Source: an uncultured Alphaproteobacteria bacterium
Lineage (GTDB): Bacteria > Pseudomonadota > Alphaproteobacteria > Bin95
Direction: 5' to 3'
NCBI GenBank assembly: GCA_938083135.1
Contig: CALLKY010000081.1
Location: 1-36,576, forward strand
DNA length: 36,576 nucleotides
In this document: positions 27,461-34,328 of the stretch, piece by piece
Numbering within the stretch: position 1 is the first letter of the stretch
How the letters are laid out: each line of letters begins with the position of its first letter
Made by a program: the position numbers and the translations under genes
The notes under the pieces: model-generated
Seen by the model: the letters and a program-made list of their open reading frames with translations, nothing else
What the model was told of the DNA's origin: nothing
The model's database searches: none

Positions 27461-28255
27461 CTATTCGCCTGTGAGGCTTAAGGGCTGGCGCGCTTCGATG
27501 ATCTTGCGGACGAGGATGAGGTCGTCAGGCTTATCAACATCGATGGCGGCTTCGGCCTGGGACATTTGTATGGCAGCGACCGGTACGTCGAGCTTCCGGC
27601 TTAAGCGCACCATGGCGTCATCCAGTCCAAGCTTGCCCATGGCGTAGAGAGCGACGGCTTTGATATCGACGGATCGAATAAGCTTCAGCGGGTTTTTGCG
27701 ATTGCGGTCGATTTCCTGCCAGAAGCCAAGCGCGTCCGCGGCATTGGGCCTTGCCAGCGCGAAGAGATTGCAGCCAGAAAACCCGCCTTCTGCGAACTTC
27801 AGATATGTGCGCCGCACGTCCGGATACGCGGCCTTGATCACGTGTTCCGAGGCGAGGCCGACGGAGGCTGAAGCCCCTTTCTCCAAAGCACCGGCGAGAA
27901 ATTCTTCCACCATGTCTGCTGTCAGCAAGCCGTGATCACCGGTGACGATCAGAAGCGGTGGGCCCAATTGCTCAAGTCCGCTGGTAACCGTTCCAACCAC
28001 GCTATCAGCAGCGCGGGCAGCTTCGGGGCGGGGGGAGATGCCGTCGAGTAATGTGGCGTCCTCAATAGCGGTAACCACGCGGCCAACGCTGGGGGCGGCA
28101 TCCAAGGCATCGATCACGCGCTGGAGTACGGGTTTACCGCAAATGTCGATCAGCGTTTTGTTGGAAACGCCTTCCGCGAGCGCCAGTGGATCGTTCGGTC
28201 GTCCAGCTGCCAGGACGAGCGCGGTCCATGCGCCTGTCATGCCTTCATCGCTCAT
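27461..28255 (-). CDS. MobA-like NTP transferase (nucleotidyltransferase)
   Basis: A 264-residue Rossmann-like nucleotidyltransferase. The N-terminal signature is LVLAAGRPNDPLA (about 13-25) with NKTLIDICGKPVLQRVIDAL, where Lys33 and the GKP loop bind the NTP. LLIVTGDHGLLT carries the metal-binding Asp, and AIDVDKPDDL closes the domain. Relatives make CDP-, GDP- or UDP-activated sugars, alcohols or cofactors. The unusual GRPNDPLA loop argues against MobA proper. Its ATG overlaps the stop of the GNAT-like gene as ATGA, so it belongs to that operon. It may supply an activated headgroup (inference). Confidence 0.83.
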   Translation of the reverse strand: MSDEGMTGAWTALVLAAGRPNDPLALAEGVSNKTLIDICGKPVLQRVIDALDAAPSVGRVVTAIEDATLLDGISPRPEAARAADSVVGTVTSGLEQLGPPLLIVTGDHGLLTADMVEEFLAGALEKGASASVGLASEHVIKAAYPDVRRTYLKFAEGGFSGCNLFALARPNAADALGFWQEIDRNRKNPLKLIRSVDIKAVALYAMGKLGLDDAMVRLSRKLDVPVAAIQMSQAEAAIDVDKPDDLILVRKIIEARQPLSLTGE

Positions 28256-29403
28256 AGCAGCGCCTTCTGGTAGACGCGGTAGGTTTTATAGGCTTCCGCA
28301 CCACCAGATTCTGCGATGCGGCGCATGGGGATATTGTCCTCCAAAATCCACGACATCTCCATTTTTTCATAGCCACGCTCGGCATGGCCATCGCCCAGGG
28401 CCTTGACCAGCGTCATGCTGACCAGGGGGCCAAGCGCTAAGTCGGCCTGAATATCCTTCACGACGCCCATCAGCAGGATGCGCGCGGATTTAGGCTTGCG
28501 CACTTTCAGCCGCCAAAGGAATTTCAACAGTGCTAAGGGTGATCCAGCGCCGCCAAGGCCCGAAAGCGCTTCATTCACATTTGGCAAGCTGGCGGCCATT
28601 CCGATAGGTCGACCATTGATTTCGACGATGAAGATCAGGCCATAATCCGCAATCATCTTGAATGCGTCCGCGAGCGCCTTGATCTCCTTCTCCGACATTG
28701 GCACGTAGCCCCAATTTTCGGACCAAGCGTCATTGAAAACGGCCAGCACCGCCGCGAGATCATGGTCGAACGCGCGTTTGTCGAAGCAGCGGATACGGGC
28801 ACCCTCTACTTGCTCCAGTTTTGCGGCGAATGCAGTGACGCGTCGCGGCAAGCCTTGTCGGGGATCATAACGGTAAGCGATTAAGTCTTTGGCTTTGGTA
28901 TATCCGGCGGCTTCAATATGGCCCCCGGCCCATGCCGGGTCGTAACCCATGAGCAGCATGGACGGTGTGTCGAAGCCATCGACGAGCAGGCCAAAATCTT
29001 CATTCACAGACAGGCTGGCAGGGCCGATGGCGAGATTGCATCCGCGCTCCTTCAGCCAAGCTTCTGCCGTTCTAAGCAATTCCCGATAAAGGGCAGGATC
29101 ATCCTCTCCGGCGATGCAGCCAAAATGGCCGTCGCCCTTGCCGTAGCGGTCCTGATGGCGCTGGTTGATTTGGGCGGAGATACGGCCAACGGGGCGATCA
29201 TCACCATTCAAAGCGACCCAGAATGCGGCCTCTCCATGGCCATAGAATGGGTGCTTTTTGGGCTCCAGGCGATGTTTCGCATCCATGGTCAGGGGTACAA
29301 TAAAGTTCGGATTGCCTTTCAGCACAGTCCCTGGTGCCGCCAAGAACGCACGTTTGGTCTTAGCGTCGGTAACGGGGAGGATGCGGTAATCCGGCAAGGT
29401 CAA
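28252..29403 (-). CDS. GNAT-fold acyltransferase-like protein (383 aa)
   Basis: A large soluble protein of a conserved bacterial family with a GNAT-like core. Visible blocks are GNPNFIVPLTMDAKHRLEPK, HGEAAFWVAL...PVGRISAQIN, FGCIAGEDDPALYRELL, AIGPASLSVNEDFGLLVDGF and a late second acetyltransferase-like half. Similar proteins turn up near lipid genes, and from memory a protein of this general kind has been linked to bacterial ceramide synthesis; I cannot verify that here. The start is TTG 29401-29403, overlapping the desaturase stop (TTGA). An N-acyltransferase role is inference. Confidence 0.75.
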   Translation of the reverse strand: MTLPDYRILPVTDAKTKRAFLAAPGTVLKGNPNFIVPLTMDAKHRLEPKKHPFYGHGEAAFWVALNGDDRPVGRISAQINQRHQDRYGKGDGHFGCIAGEDDPALYRELLRTAEAWLKERGCNLAIGPASLSVNEDFGLLVDGFDTPSMLLMGYDPAWAGGHIEAAGYTKAKDLIAYRYDPRQGLPRRVTAFAAKLEQVEGARIRCFDKRAFDHDLAAVLAVFNDAWSENWGYVPMSEKEIKALADAFKMIADYGLIFIVEINGRPIGMAASLPNVNEALSGLGGAGSPLALLKFLWRLKVRKPKSARILLMGVVKDIQADLALGPLVSMTLVKALGDGHAERGYEKMEMSWILEDNIPMRRIAESGGAEAYKTYRVYQKALL

Positions 29404-30137
29404 TCCTTAGCCGTCAGCCCGGATTGCTCCGCGACCCATGGATATTTCGAATATTCTTCCGCTGTATAGCCAAGGTTCCGGACAGTCGGGCTTGCCGGTT
29501 TTTCGGATATTTTGCCGTAATATGAGCCAAACAGCTTGTCCCAAAGGAACGTCGTGATGCCGTAATTGCCCTGCTCGCTATGGAAATGGTGGGCCATGTG
29601 CAAGCGCTTGATCTTTTTCAGCCAGGCGCGCTTTGGCGTGAATCCAAGATGCTGAATGCAGTGGCAGAATTCGTAGATGCACGTGACGAACAGCCCGCAC
29701 GCGAATGCTGATGCCGCACCACCCGGCCCGCCGATCGCCCAGCCCAAAGGGATGGTGGCCATGGCGATAGTCGGCAGCGTCGTGTAGAGCGCGCCAAACA
29801 GCACACCAAGATCGTTCGGATCGCCATGATGGTCGAAATGGATGCGCTTCCAAACGGACGCTGTCAGCGGGCTTTTATACAGGTAGCGGCCATGCAGTAC
29901 GAACCGGTGCAGCACATACCAGACCAGCCCATAGATAAAGATGGTTACGACGACGGCGGCCAGCGCGGCCAGAAACCCAGGCCAGTAATAGATGGCAGCG
30001 GCAGTGCTCAGCACACCAAGACCCAAATATCCCTGGATCGCCGGAAATGCGAAATAAGCGCGCACTAGGTCTGGCACCGTCATCCGGTCCAGATAGTGTT
30101 TGCGCCCGTCCCAAAGCGCGGACCTAAGGAAAGCCAT
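29400..30137 (-). CDS. Fatty acid hydroxylase / sterol desaturase family membrane di-iron enzyme
   Basis: The ATG at 30137 gives 245 residues with four or so membrane helices and the histidine boxes of the family: HRFVLH (77-82), HFDHH (100-104), HCIQH (159-163) and HMAHH (180-184) followed by HSEQGNYG. These bind a di-iron centre that hydroxylates or desaturates lipid chains or sterols. The longer frame upstream to 30518 overlaps the divergent LptF gene and is rejected. It is the first gene of the minus-strand lipid arm. Confidence 0.9.
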   Translation of the reverse strand: MAFLRSALWDGRKHYLDRMTVPDLVRAYFAFPAIQGYLGLGVLSTAAAIYYWPGFLAALAAVVVTIFIYGLVWYVLHRFVLHGRYLYKSPLTASVWKRIHFDHHGDPNDLGVLFGALYTTLPTIAMATIPLGWAIGGPGGAASAFACGLFVTCIYEFCHCIQHLGFTPKRAWLKKIKRLHMAHHFHSEQGNYGITTFLWDKLFGSYYGKISEKPASPTVRNLGYTAEEYSKYPWVAEQSGLTAKD

Positions 30138-30248
30138 GTCTCGGCCTCGTTTCAATTGCTCATGCTGCCAAGGCCGTGATTTAGGACTGTGCGGGCGCGC
30201 GCGCAAGACCGGCTGACCCGGGCGAGTGCCCATGCTAAGACACCTCCC
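30138..30248. promoter_or_regulatory. Divergent promoter region of the two lipid-cassette arms
   Basis: This 111-bp gap separates the desaturase (minus) and LptF (plus) starts and must drive both operons. It contains CAATTG and a GCGCGCGCGC run near 30195. No convincing -35/-10 or operator could be fixed. Confidence 0.4.
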
Positions 30249-31415
30249 ATGGGCCGTATTGACCGCTATATCCTGAGCCACATGGCCGGGCCGTTCTTCG
30301 GCGCGCTTTTCGGCGTGCTCGCATTGCTGATGCTTGAGCGGCTGCTGCGTCTGCTTGATCTCGTGAATTCGAACGAGGGGGCGCTTCGCTATATCTTCGA
30401 CATGCTGACCAATTTGGCGCCGCATTATTTGGGCCTGGCACTGCCAGCGGCATTGTTCATTGCCTGCTATGTCGGCTACCGACGGCTTGCCACAACCAGT
30501 GAAATTGCGGCGTTGCAAAGCATCGGCAGGGGGCTTGGCCGCATGGCGTTTCCAGCGTTTATGGCCGCCACATTGATCGCCGCGTTCTCAGCCCTGCTCC
30601 ATGGATACCTTCAGCCCCATGGCCGGTATGCGTATAGAAGCCTTGGGTTTTTAGCCGCCCATGCCTCCATCGCTGCCGCCCTCGAATCCGGCGCATTCCT
30701 GGAAAATGACGGCATCACCTTTATGGCGGAACAGGCGACGCCTGGCGGTCGCACATTGGCCAAGGTGTTTGTTTATGAAGAGCGCCCAGACGGTGTTGCA
30801 CGCATCATCACATCGAAAGGCGGCGCGCTCATTGAAAGTGCCGATGGGCAGCGCTCTGCTCTCCATTTCAAAGATGGCTTGATGGTTGAGGAGGACGATA
30901 AAGGCGGGCGGCGGCGCATCACCTTCAATACGTTTGATTGGCCAATAGACCGCGGTGCCCTCGGCGCGTTCCGCCCCCGTGGGGCCAATGAACGAGAACT
31001 CACCTGGCTAGAACTCTATGCCGCCCGCGACAATCCGCCGGAAGCGACCACGCGCGCCCGCGTTGTTTCAGAGATTCATGCCCGCGCCGCCCGTGCTTTC
31101 GCGGTGCTGCTTATGCCGATGTTGGCAATCCCGCTTGCTGTGGCTGGTATCCGCACCCGTACGTCCGGGCCGCTGGCGTTTGGCATCGTCACAATGCTGG
31201 TGTTTACCCAGGCGCTGCAATTCGGCGAAGGCATGGCGGATTTGGAGCGAGCGCCCGTCCTGGTCGCAATCTGGACACCGGTGCTCGGGCTTCTGCTGAT
31301 ATCAGGATTCCTATTCTGGCGAACATGGCGCGGTGTCGGCTTCAATCCAGGCGATTGGCTACCGCAAATTAGCTTCAAACGCCGCAGCAAGGTGACAGAG
31401 GCGGGCGGATCATGA
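30249..31415 (+). CDS. LptF/LptG-family permease (first of pair, LptF-like)
   Basis: The ATG at 30249 gives a 388-residue protein with the family layout: N-terminal IDRYILSHMAGPFFGALFG helix, two more helices, a periplasmic beta-jellyroll-like domain (about 150-290), then three C-terminal helices (from about AFAVLLMPMLAIPLAV). LptF and LptG with the ATPase LptB extract LPS from the inner membrane. Here no LptB or LptC gene is nearby and the partners are lipid-modifying enzymes, so the pair may be a paralogue moving another lipid (inference). Its stop overlaps the next start as ATGA. Confidence 0.85.
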   Translation: MGRIDRYILSHMAGPFFGALFGVLALLMLERLLRLLDLVNSNEGALRYIFDMLTNLAPHYLGLALPAALFIACYVGYRRLATTSEIAALQSIGRGLGRMAFPAFMAATLIAAFSALLHGYLQPHGRYAYRSLGFLAAHASIAAALESGAFLENDGITFMAEQATPGGRTLAKVFVYEERPDGVARIITSKGGALIESADGQRSALHFKDGLMVEEDDKGGRRRITFNTFDWPIDRGALGAFRPRGANERELTWLELYAARDNPPEATTRARVVSEIHARAARAFAVLLMPMLAIPLAVAGIRTRTSGPLAFGIVTMLVFTQALQFGEGMADLERAPVLVAIWTPVLGLLLISGFLFWRTWRGVGFNPGDWLPQISFKRRSKVTEAGGS

Positions 31416-32482
31416 TCAGTACGCTCGACCGATATCTGCTGCGCCGCCTGATCAGTTCATTCGCCGTTGTATTTCTGGGCGTAGTTGGCCTTGCCGCTAC
31501 CCTCGACTTGCTGGCCAATGCGGATGAAGCCGTGGAGGGGGCGGAGAAGCTTGGCGGGCTTGGTGTGTATTTGATCGCACGCTTGCCTTTGATCGCGCTG
31601 GAGCTTGCGCCCATCGCTGGCCTTTTGTCCGCCTTGGTGACGCTATTGGCTTTGGCGCGTTCAGGGGAGCTTGCGGCGGCAGGCGCACTTGGAGCCGGGC
31701 AGGGACGCAGCATCCGTGCGCTTTTACCCGCTGCCATCGGCTTCGGATTGGCGATGTATTTCATTGCGGAACTGGCCGCCCCGCCTGCCGCCGCTACTCT
31801 CCGCGCTATGGGGCTGGAGCCATTTGCACGTCTAGCTAGGCCGACCGAGGCGATTTGGCTTCGTGAGGACCAGGATATCGCCCGCATCAACAAAGCGTCA
31901 GCGGACGACAATACGCTGACAGGTGTCCGCATTTTCCGCCGCGATGCGGATGGCAGACTAACGGAGGAAGTGCGGGCTGCACGGGCTGAGCGCGCGGGAA
32001 GTAACGGATGGACCTTCCATGATGTAACTGTCCTTCCAGGGGATGGTAGCCCCTCGCGGCGAATGAATGTGTTGGCGTGGCCACACCCGCTCGGGCCGGG
32101 GTCCTTTGGGCTTTTGGCAGCACATCCTTCCGAATTGCCGATGCAGATGGTCCGGGACCTGGGCGATCATCCAGGTGCTAGCGCCAAGCCACCGTTTTAC
32201 TATGAGCTTTGGGTGCAACGGAAATATGCGGCACCCGTTGGGGCAGCACTCATGCTGATGTTGGCGGTGCCGTTCGCGGGCCGGATGACGCGCGGTCGCT
32301 CTATGGGCTGGCCCTTGGCGGCGGGTCTGCTCGTGGGTTTTGCCTATTTTGTGTTTGAGAGTTTGGCGATGGCGGCCGCAGAAACTGGTGCGATCTCGCC
32401 TTTAGCGGGTGCATGGGGACCGCCAATGACGCTGGCGCTGGCCACTGCCACGATGATGGCGTTTCAGGAAAAACCAGGATGA
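31412..32482 (+). CDS. LptF/LptG-family permease (second of pair, LptG-like)
   Basis: A 356-residue protein beginning STLDRYLLRRLISSFAVVFL, with helices at the N-terminus, a periplasmic domain (about 140-260) and C-terminal helices around AAPVGAALMLMLAVPFAGR and GLLVGFAYFVFESLAMAA. The final LAGAWGPPMTLALATATMM block is the typical LptG end. It overlaps the LptF-like gene and the lipid kinase gene by ATGA at both ends, so the four plus-strand genes are a single coupled operon. The dedicated substrate is not known. Confidence 0.85.
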   Translation: MISTLDRYLLRRLISSFAVVFLGVVGLAATLDLLANADEAVEGAEKLGGLGVYLIARLPLIALELAPIAGLLSALVTLLALARSGELAAAGALGAGQGRSIRALLPAAIGFGLAMYFIAELAAPPAAATLRAMGLEPFARLARPTEAIWLREDQDIARINKASADDNTLTGVRIFRRDADGRLTEEVRAARAERAGSNGWTFHDVTVLPGDGSPSRRMNVLAWPHPLGPGSFGLLAAHPSELPMQMVRDLGDHPGASAKPPFYYELWVQRKYAAPVGAALMLMLAVPFAGRMTRGRSMGWPLAAGLLVGFAYFVFESLAMAAAETGAISPLAGAWGPPMTLALATATMMAFQEKPG

Positions 32483-33447
32483 ACTCGCCGCCGCGCAGGT
32501 TTGGCGCACTGGTCAATCCCAATAGCCGCCGCAATCGCAAGGTCGATGCAGCGCACTTGCGCGCGCTTGGCCCCAATATCGAACTAACCGAGTCCCCAGC
32601 GGATGCGCCAGCCGCACTCCGCCGGATGGCGGCAAACGGTGTGGATGTGGTTGCGGTGAGCGGCGGCGACGGGGCTGTCATGACGGCGTTATCAGCCATC
32701 CTGATCGAGGGCACCTTCGATCCTCCACCAATTCTGTGCCTATTGCCGTCCGGCACAACGAATATGACGGCTGGTGATATTGGCCTGAAGGCAACCCTCG
32801 CTGAAGCCAAAGCGCTGGCGGAATCTGGCGGTGGTCGGTTGGTCAGGCGGCCCATCCTGCGGCTTGATAACGTCATGGATGCAAATGGCGTTATGGGCGC
32901 GCATGCGGGTATGTTTTTCGGTGCCATTGGCATTTGCCGCGCAATCGCATTTTGCCGCGCGCATCTCCATAGCCGGGGCGTTGTGGGTGTCGGCGCCTCA
33001 TGGTTGACGCTCCTACCGCTGCTGCTGAAGAACCTGACCTCCGCAAAGGAAAATGGCGTATTGGCGCCAGCGCCTGCTGCGATCCGTGTGTTTGATCAGG
33101 CTGGTGATGAGATTGAGACGCTAGACGGCCCATGGTCTGTGTTGATGGCGTCCACATTGGAAAAACTGGTGATGGGTGCCCGGCCGTTTTGGGGCGAAGG
33201 TGTTGGCCTTGGTGTTGACGCAACGTTTGTGCGCGCCCCGCCGCCGCATCTCGCGCGGTCGATCCGCCCGCTTTTGTTTGGTGCCGCAAAGCGCCCGCCA
33301 GAACCCGGATACCAGAGCCGGCGGGCGGCTGCATTTGAGATTGCCTATACGGGCCAGGTGACTTTGGATGGCGAGCTCTATGACGCTGATGCAGCAACGC
33401 CGCTCCGCCTTAGTTTCGCCGGTGAAATCAGGTTTCTGGTGAAATGA
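32479..33447 (+). CDS. Diacylglycerol kinase-family lipid kinase
   Basis: The ATG at 32479 gives 322 residues with the DAGK/sphingosine-kinase catalytic signature: FGALVNPNSRRNR start, VSGGDGAV (60-67), LPSGTTNMTA (89-98) and a late VTLDGELYDAD. These enzymes phosphorylate diacylglycerol, sphingoid bases or ceramide using ATP. The acceptor cannot be told from sequence. It is flanked by the LptG-like permease and a Tam41-like cytidylyltransferase, both overlapping by ATGA; making a phospholipid precursor for that neighbour is the natural reading. Confidence 0.88.
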   Translation: MNSPPRRFGALVNPNSRRNRKVDAAHLRALGPNIELTESPADAPAALRRMAANGVDVVAVSGGDGAVMTALSAILIEGTFDPPPILCLLPSGTTNMTAGDIGLKATLAEAKALAESGGGRLVRRPILRLDNVMDANGVMGAHAGMFFGAIGICRAIAFCRAHLHSRGVVGVGASWLTLLPLLLKNLTSAKENGVLAPAPAAIRVFDQAGDEIETLDGPWSVLMASTLEKLVMGARPFWGEGVGLGVDATFVRAPPPHLARSIRPLLFGAAKRPPEPGYQSRRAAAFEIAYTGQVTLDGELYDADAATPLRLSFAGEIRFLVK

Positions 33448-34328
33448 GCACGGACCCCATCCAAGCCTTTATGACGGCAGAACTGGATCGCACGGTCGAA
33501 CCGGCAACGATGGCGCTGGCAGAGGCGGCCATGGCCCGGGTCGGCGGCGTGCGGGCGGTGCTGTTCTATGGCTCCTGCCTCCGCGATGGCCTGGCGACAG
33601 ATGCGGTCGCTGACCTTTATCTGCTGACGGATGGTTATAAATCGACCGGTCAAGCGCCGTGGGCACGGATGGCGAACGGGTTGCTGGCACCCAATGTGTT
33701 CTACATGGAAGCCGAAACACCCCTTGGCCAGATCGCAGCGAAGGCGGCTATTGTATCGGTTGATGATTTCGTGCGCCTGACTGGGCCGAAGACGTTCCAT
33801 TCCTACTTCTGGGCGCGGTTTACACAGCCTGCCGCCGTTGTTTGGGCGAATGGGCAAGACACACGACAAGCACTTGCGCGCGCCTTCGCCGCCGCCGCGC
33901 GCACATTTGCTGCTGAAACGGCAGAAGGCCCGCTAGCACCCGGTGCGTCAGACCAATTCTGGCCTGTGGGGTTTCAGAAGACCTACGCATCAGAACTGCG
34001 CGCCGAAGGGCCGGAACGGGCGGAGATATTGTATCGGGCCGATGCGGACCGGTATCGCGCCCTTTATGATCTACTACAAGCGGATGGGGTTGAACCGCTT
34101 AGTGCGCCACGGCGGTGGCGTCTAAGGCGCATGCAAGGAAAGTTCTTGTCTGTCGCACGGCTGGCCAAAGCGATTTTCACGTTTGAAAATGGCGTGGATT
34201 ATGTGCTGTGGAAGGTGAAACGTCATAGCGGTGTGCATATTGAGGCCAAGCCCTGGCAGCGGCGCTTTCCATTGATCGCAGCACCTGGATTAGCCTTTAA
34301 AGTTTGGCGCGCTGGCGGGTTTCGCTGA
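33444..34328 (+). CDS. Tam41-like (phosphatidate cytidylyltransferase) nucleotidyltransferase-fold protein
   Basis: A 294-residue protein. It shows a nucleotidyltransferase-type motif VLFYGSCLR (39-47) then A-D-L-Y-L-L-T-D (56-63), matching the YGSG...DLxFxVDD pattern of Tam41/Mmp37, where the second acid of the DxD is also absent. Further along, PNVFYMEAE and KAAIVSVDDFVRL...SYFWARFTQPAAVVW parallel Tam41's GVYFNP, KYGVxSxxDL and LYxAGRLxKPV blocks. Tam41 makes CDP-diacylglycerol from phosphatidate and CTP in mitochondria. That function here is inference, but the lipid kinase just upstream would make its substrate. Previous family knowledge in bacteria is thin. Confidence 0.6.
   Translation: MSTDPIQAFMTAELDRTVEPATMALAEAAMARVGGVRAVLFYGSCLRDGLATDAVADLYLLTDGYKSTGQAPWARMANGLLAPNVFYMEAETPLGQIAAKAAIVSVDDFVRLTGPKTFHSYFWARFTQPAAVVWANGQDTRQALARAFAAAARTFAAETAEGPLAPGASDQFWPVGFQKTYASELRAEGPERAEILYRADADRYRALYDLLQADGVEPLSAPRRWRLRRMQGKFLSVARLAKAIFTFENGVDYVLWKVKRHSGVHIEAKPWQRRFPLIAAPGLAFKVWRAGGFR

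Follow-up and report, generated by a model that had tools for sequence, protein, structure and literature searches.

What does a pair of Lpt-type permeases transport when it is encoded among lipid-building enzymes in a genome that lacks the genes for lipid A? In 2024 it was still stated to be unknown how sphingolipids of bacteria get to the outer membrane (PMC11324152), and the locus described here makes the export question directly testable, since the only Lpt pair of its genome lies inside a sphingolipid cluster and has no LPS to carry. The window, i.e. the whole stretch of 36,576 nucleotides analyzed from an uncultured alphaproteobacterium, contains at positions 27461–34328 seven ORFs in two divergent arms. 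The minus-strand arm encodes a CofC/MobA-like nucleotidyltransferase (27461–28255, NTP_transf_3 E 3.8e-9), a GNAT-type protein assigned below as the bacterial ceramide synthase CerS (28252–29403) and a Scs7/FA2H-like di-iron hydroxylase (29400–30137, start taken as the ATG at 30137, FA_hydroxylase E 1.8e-20). The plus-strand arm encodes an LptF2-type permease (30249–31415, PF03739 E 4e-62), an LptG2-type permease (31412–32482, PF03739 E 1e-52), a CpgB-type putative ceramide kinase of the DAGK fold (32479–33447, ATG at 32479 and stop at 33447, DAGK_cat E 2.8e-12) and a CpgC-type nucleotidyltransferase with a predicted Tam41 fold (33444–34328). Pfam matches were obtained for six of the seven genes (NTP_transf_3, a weak Acetyltransf_1, FA_hydroxylase, LptF_LptG twice and DAGK_cat) and none for the last one. 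The ORF positions bear out the seven genes, the two coupled arms and the 111-bp divergent gap of a preliminary description of this DNA, with the overlaps between neighboring genes measured as 4 bp throughout each arm. The gap (30138–30248, on neither strand) is presumably regulatory; that it forms one promoter region shared by both arms is presumed rather than read from the sequence, because no sigma-70-like promoter was recognized within it.

The preliminary description had regarded the gene set as undescribed, which does not hold, as nearly the same set including LptF2/LptG2 has been published for Caulobacter crescentus and its relatives (PMC11324152). In C. crescentus CC_1152–CC_1168 include five genes that make ceramide and six that convert it to ceramide phosphoglycerate lipids (Olea-Ozuna et al. 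2024, PMC11324152). CC_1155, CC_1156 and CC_1168 are second versions of LptF, LptG and LptC and were proposed, though not tested, as sphingolipid exporters (PMC11324152). The set in the window is part of this known Caulobacter-type phosphosphingolipid cluster, and the idea of export was published first for Caulobacter. Both clusters hold CerS, the CofC-like protein, CpgB, CpgC and LptF2/LptG2 together, with CerS followed by the CofC-like gene. The window differs in that the ceramide operon is located elsewhere in the genome and an Scs7-like hydroxylase is included in the cluster, whereas neither CpgA nor a second LptC (CC_1168, LptC2), both part of the Caulobacter cluster, was found in it. In addition, LPS is retained in Caulobacter together with another LptFG pair of the LPS type, while in the window genome lipid A genes are missing and the cluster pair is the only one. 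What is new here are an LPS-free genus with a single pair in an otherwise LPS-keeping family, two CerS-linked clades of LptFG, the LptF/G numbers across the class and the finding of a Tam41 fold in CpgC.

Assignment of the individual genes rests on similarity and synteny. The GNAT-like protein shows 47% identity to the Caulobacter endophyticus protein (L064) at the published position, has the same neighbors and shares 33 invariant columns over 16 family members; we assign it as the ceramide synthase, the counterpart of CC_1154, predicted to N-acylate the sphingoid base. The NTP transferase gene comes after CerS in Caulobacter and most relatives as well, and CC_1153 at this position is needed for CPG2 in Caulobacter (PMC11324152). 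The kinase is 27–35% identical to orthologues including that of Caulobacter, and the CpgB and CpgC genes are adjacent in the window (32479–34328) as in relatives. These similarities and neighborhoods identify the kinase as the counterpart of CpgB (CC_1160), the last gene as that of CpgC (CC_1161) and the NTP transferase as that of CC_1153. An ORF of L064 (12283–13137) considered as CpgD was dropped after searches of other loci gave no homologue.

Searching with a ceramide synthase profile yielded 579 loci, and among the best 80 of these all six core genes were found in 29 and all seven genes, i.e. also the hydroxylase, in 10. The preliminary description had named lack of joint conservation in relatives as an observation that would speak against its proposal; within these 80 loci LptF/G does occur with the kinase and the Tam41-like gene as a conserved set. 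Three named contigs (L077, L107 and L128) show the same divergent layout as the window, L077 without a detected NTP transferase. Since orthologues cluster in dozens of other genomes, the gene neighborhood is not due to chance. The LPS-free Sphingomonadales S. wittichii and Z. mobilis resemble the window organism in having a sphingolipid instead of LPS and orthologues including LptF2/G2; there, however, the orthologues are scattered over 6–10 regions (PMC11324152), whereas in the window seven genes form one divergent unit, and LPS is retained by the other genera of the small family to which the window organism belongs.

Taken together, we consider it very likely that the locus serves sphingolipid maturation and export in an alphaproteobacterium whose LPS has been lost. 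The preliminary description had suggested that a non-LPS lipid, perhaps hydroxylated and N-acylated, has an Lpt-type export route of its own; the sequence evidence supports this and points to a sphingolipid as the lipid, while the transport itself we infer.

We analyzed the relation of the permease pair to those of other genomes in a tree of 84 concatenated LptF and LptG pairs (FastTree support and 50 bootstraps). The window pair is the sole LptF/LptG pair of its genome and scores below the NCBIfam cut-offs (LptF 197 bits against 230, LptG 217.6 bits against 240). In the tree it groups with the pair of the Caulobacter cluster in one clade, separate from the LPS pairs. This clade, SL-I, contains 41 pairs, of which 38 including these two lie within about 15 kb of CerS; the remaining three are second-copy pairs not linked to CerS, from CerS-containing genomes. 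A second clade, SL-II, comprises 15 CerS-linked pairs (L099, L109, L112, L113, L126, L133, L140, L141, L142, L083, L091, L093, L106, L129 and L217) and branches near gammaproteobacterial LPS pairs. Its members come from Nitrospirales (Nitrospirota), Desulfobulbaceae (Desulfobacterota), Gammaproteobacteria and some Alphaproteobacteria, and include the CerS-linked pairs of Nitrospirillum, Acidocella, Pseudomonas asuensis and Pantoea. LPS pairs, among them those of E. coli and the sister genera, make up the other 28. Both SL-I and SL-II received a support of 1.0 and were recovered in 50 of 50 bootstraps. The window clade is thus separate from the canonical LPS pairs, a point posed as a question in the preliminary description. 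A first tree of 71–73 pairs also grouped the window with CerS-linked pairs, and IQ-TREE on that first set gave the same split. From this topology CerS-linked LptFG appears to have arisen at least twice.

The number of LptF/G genes was determined in 190 alphaproteobacterial genomes drawn evenly from the class; related genomes in these counts are non-independent observations. When LpxC is present without CerS, 131 of 146 genomes have two LptF/G genes. With both LpxC and CerS the number rises to four or five (8/10 genomes), and with CerS but no LpxC it is again two (14/15). LpxC is present in 10 of 25 genomes with CerS versus 146 of 165 without (Fisher p 3e-7, not corrected for relatedness and with some absences being assembly gaps). 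Among genomes searched whole, 16 of 17 LpxC-negative, CerS-positive ones have exactly one pair, always of SL-I, and one has none, whereas 20 of 22 genomes with both LpxC and CerS have two pairs. Where both pairs of such a two-pair genome were placed in the tree, one is of the LPS type and the other of the CerS-linked type. A second family, f29, likewise comprises both states, with G041 having LpxC without CerS and G171 having CerS without LpxC; the latter genome also carries two CerS copies (L062). That LptF/G number tracks LpxC and CerS across the class turns a proposal for one organism into a general prediction.

These counts bear on the alternative that the cluster does make sphingolipids, but that LptFG moves some other lipid of the envelope or is unselective among several. 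No transport test was found for any organism, the Caulobacter study stating that it did not investigate transport (PMC11324152), and among the 19 genomes lacking both LpxC and CerS eight still have two LptF/G genes, while nine have none. On the other hand, LptF/G number follows CerS in the LpxC-negative genomes, and all SL-I members of the tree come from CerS-positive genomes, the only CerS-negative genomes in the tree being the LPS-positive sister genera and E. coli. We regard this alternative as improbable. The association has exceptions. G079 (L240), a complete 5.4-Mb chromosome, contains CerS and Spt without LpxC, and no LptF or LptG was found anywhere in it, so that another sphingolipid route must exist somewhere. 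G048 and G092 (L234, L235, L228) have LpxC together with CerS and Spt-like genes, yet only LPS-clade LptF/G. As a separate observation, G032 and G163 (one genus), G075 and G146 have two LptF/G genes without LpxC or CerS, possibly pointing to a third kind of cargo or to missing sequence.

A second alternative is that the pair, being the sole Lpt permeases encoded by the genome, is an ordinary LPS extractor located beside lipid genes by chance. The pair is indeed the only one, and the organism shares with the canonical enterobacterial LptB2FGC exporter (PMC5548808, PMC6744409) the PF03739 permease pair as well as LptC and LptD, each single-copy and encoded outside the cluster. However, neither LpxC nor LpxK was found in the own genome, which is 99.99% complete, or in four genus-mates (5/5 without both), while the nine genomes from the family's two other genera all carry both. 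In these nine genomes Caulobacter-type Spt is absent, one showing a weaker match of 34%. The genus appears to have lost LPS altogether, and the LptFG pump should therefore now serve sphingolipids alone. The window pair further differs from the canonical exporter by its separate clade, its sub-cut-off scores and its changed lipid-A-contact residues in LptG. The placement outside the LPS clades in all bootstraps and the division of two-pair genomes into an LPS-type and a CerS-linked pair equally speak against an LPS extractor, and export of LPS by this pair was rejected on gene content and phylogeny. The preliminary description had named a sole pair essential for LPS as the observation that would speak against its proposal; the pair is the sole copy, but LpxC and LpxK are missing and the pair belongs to a CerS-linked clade. 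An LPS extractor is very improbable; short of a lipid A pathway built from non-homologous enzymes, gene content already refutes it. In the open-licence literature, which leaves earlier work possible, we found no report on LPS loss in other Alphaproteobacteria or on LptF2/G2 outside PMC11324152.

The sphingoid base is accounted for by an aasR-cerR-acpR-spt operon elsewhere in the own genome (G000:C33, L230:6243–10634), encoding an AMP-binding synthetase, CerR, a small ACP and an Spt with 52% identity to Caulobacter Spt. Neither the window nor the spt locus, the two regions searched, yielded CpgA, a CDP-alcohol phosphotransferase that together with CpgD serves the second phosphoglycerate in the Caulobacter-type cluster. 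The solved structure nearest to the hydroxylase is that of SCS7, the enzyme of yeast that hydroxylates ceramide fatty acids (PF04116, E 4e-12 over 149 residues); the window enzyme probably hydroxylates ceramide. That the lipid is instead another N-acylated amino lipid resembling ornithine lipids, with the GNAT protein and hydroxylase acting as in Ols pathways, is scarcely credible and was rejected. In its favor the hydroxylase matches the OlsE model weakly, with 21 bits where the cut-off is 475; against it speak the closeness of the hydroxylase to Scs7, the CpgB and CpgC neighbors and the Spt, CerR and ACP/synthetase operon in the same genome.

The activity of CpgC is listed as undetermined in the literature (PMC12275187), and a CDP-DAG synthase domain was seen in CC_1161 by the Caulobacter authors (PMC11324152). 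We obtained a confident AlphaFold2 model of the window protein (pLDDT 93), which matched bacterial Tam41 with CTP (7ecd) at Z 17.6 and yeast Tam41 (6ig4) at Z 14.3; the scores of other nucleotidyltransferases were far lower, at most Z 7.5. The earlier Tam41-like call for this gene was right, because the model shows the fold of this CDP-diacylglycerol synthase over 199–217 residues together with a YGS...D motif, although identity is only 11–17%. The fold suggests a concrete reaction: CpgC is probably a CDP-ceramide synthase, its substrate most likely being ceramide-1-phosphate rather than phosphatidic acid. Formation of CDP-ceramide would ease an energetic difficulty noted in the published Caulobacter scheme (PMC11324152).

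We propose the following pathway, in which the enzyme activities and the head group are predicted from gene content. The aasR-cerR-acpR-spt operon would make the sphingoid base, which CerS would N-acylate to dihydroceramide, and the Scs7-like enzyme would then hydroxylate the ceramide. CpgB may phosphorylate it to ceramide-1-phosphate, the product reported for Caulobacter CpgB (PMC10331486, as cited in PMC11324152). CpgC would probably activate this as CDP-ceramide, allowing attachment of a head group, a further part of which the CofC-like enzyme may activate. LptF2/LptG2, presumably with an LptB ATPase encoded elsewhere, would lift the completed lipid out of the inner membrane onto the one LptC-LptA-LptD bridge, by which it would reach the outer membrane and take the place of LPS. 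The single LptC match of the genome lies beside an LptA-like fragment, and no second LptC of the CC_1168 type was found in the genome. A 9.5-kb run of N (L232:1–9501, G000:C29) adjoins lptC and hides most of lptA and what follows, probably lptB; an apparent ORF of 3,255 aa beside LptC was rejected, as it consists of this run of N.

Residues of the substrate pocket were compared as well. In the enterobacterial LptB2FG structure LptG binds the 4'-phosphate of lipid A through K40 and the inner core through K41 (PMC6744409). Window LptG has D, D and E at E. coli positions 34, 40 and 41. Among the LPS pairs of Alphaproteobacteria 22/23 have a basic residue at position 40 and 19/23 at position 41, compared with 2/41 and 4/41 SL-I pairs and 2/15 and 0/15 SL-II pairs; five non-alphaproteobacterial LPS pairs are mixed, with each position basic in two. 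Position 30 of LptF is basic in all 41 SL-I pairs. Position 34 of LptG was rejected as a clade marker, being mostly D in both clades within Alphaproteobacteria. The changes in the LptG pocket fit a different head group, but since the K40E/K41E double change leaves growth of E. coli unaffected (PMC5548808), positions 40 and 41 alone are no proof of substrate choice.

Regarding the origin of these exporters, we lean toward a recruitment of LptF/LptG to sphingolipid export on at least two occasions (SL-I and SL-II), after which several alphaproteobacterial SL-I lineages would have given up LPS together with the LPS-type pair. On this view the Lpt bridge passed repeatedly from LPS to sphingolipids, also within this one small family. 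No LpxC was found in Hansschlegelia plantiphila (G209, L127) either, and its single LptFG pair belongs to the SL-I clade, which makes this named species a handy test organism.
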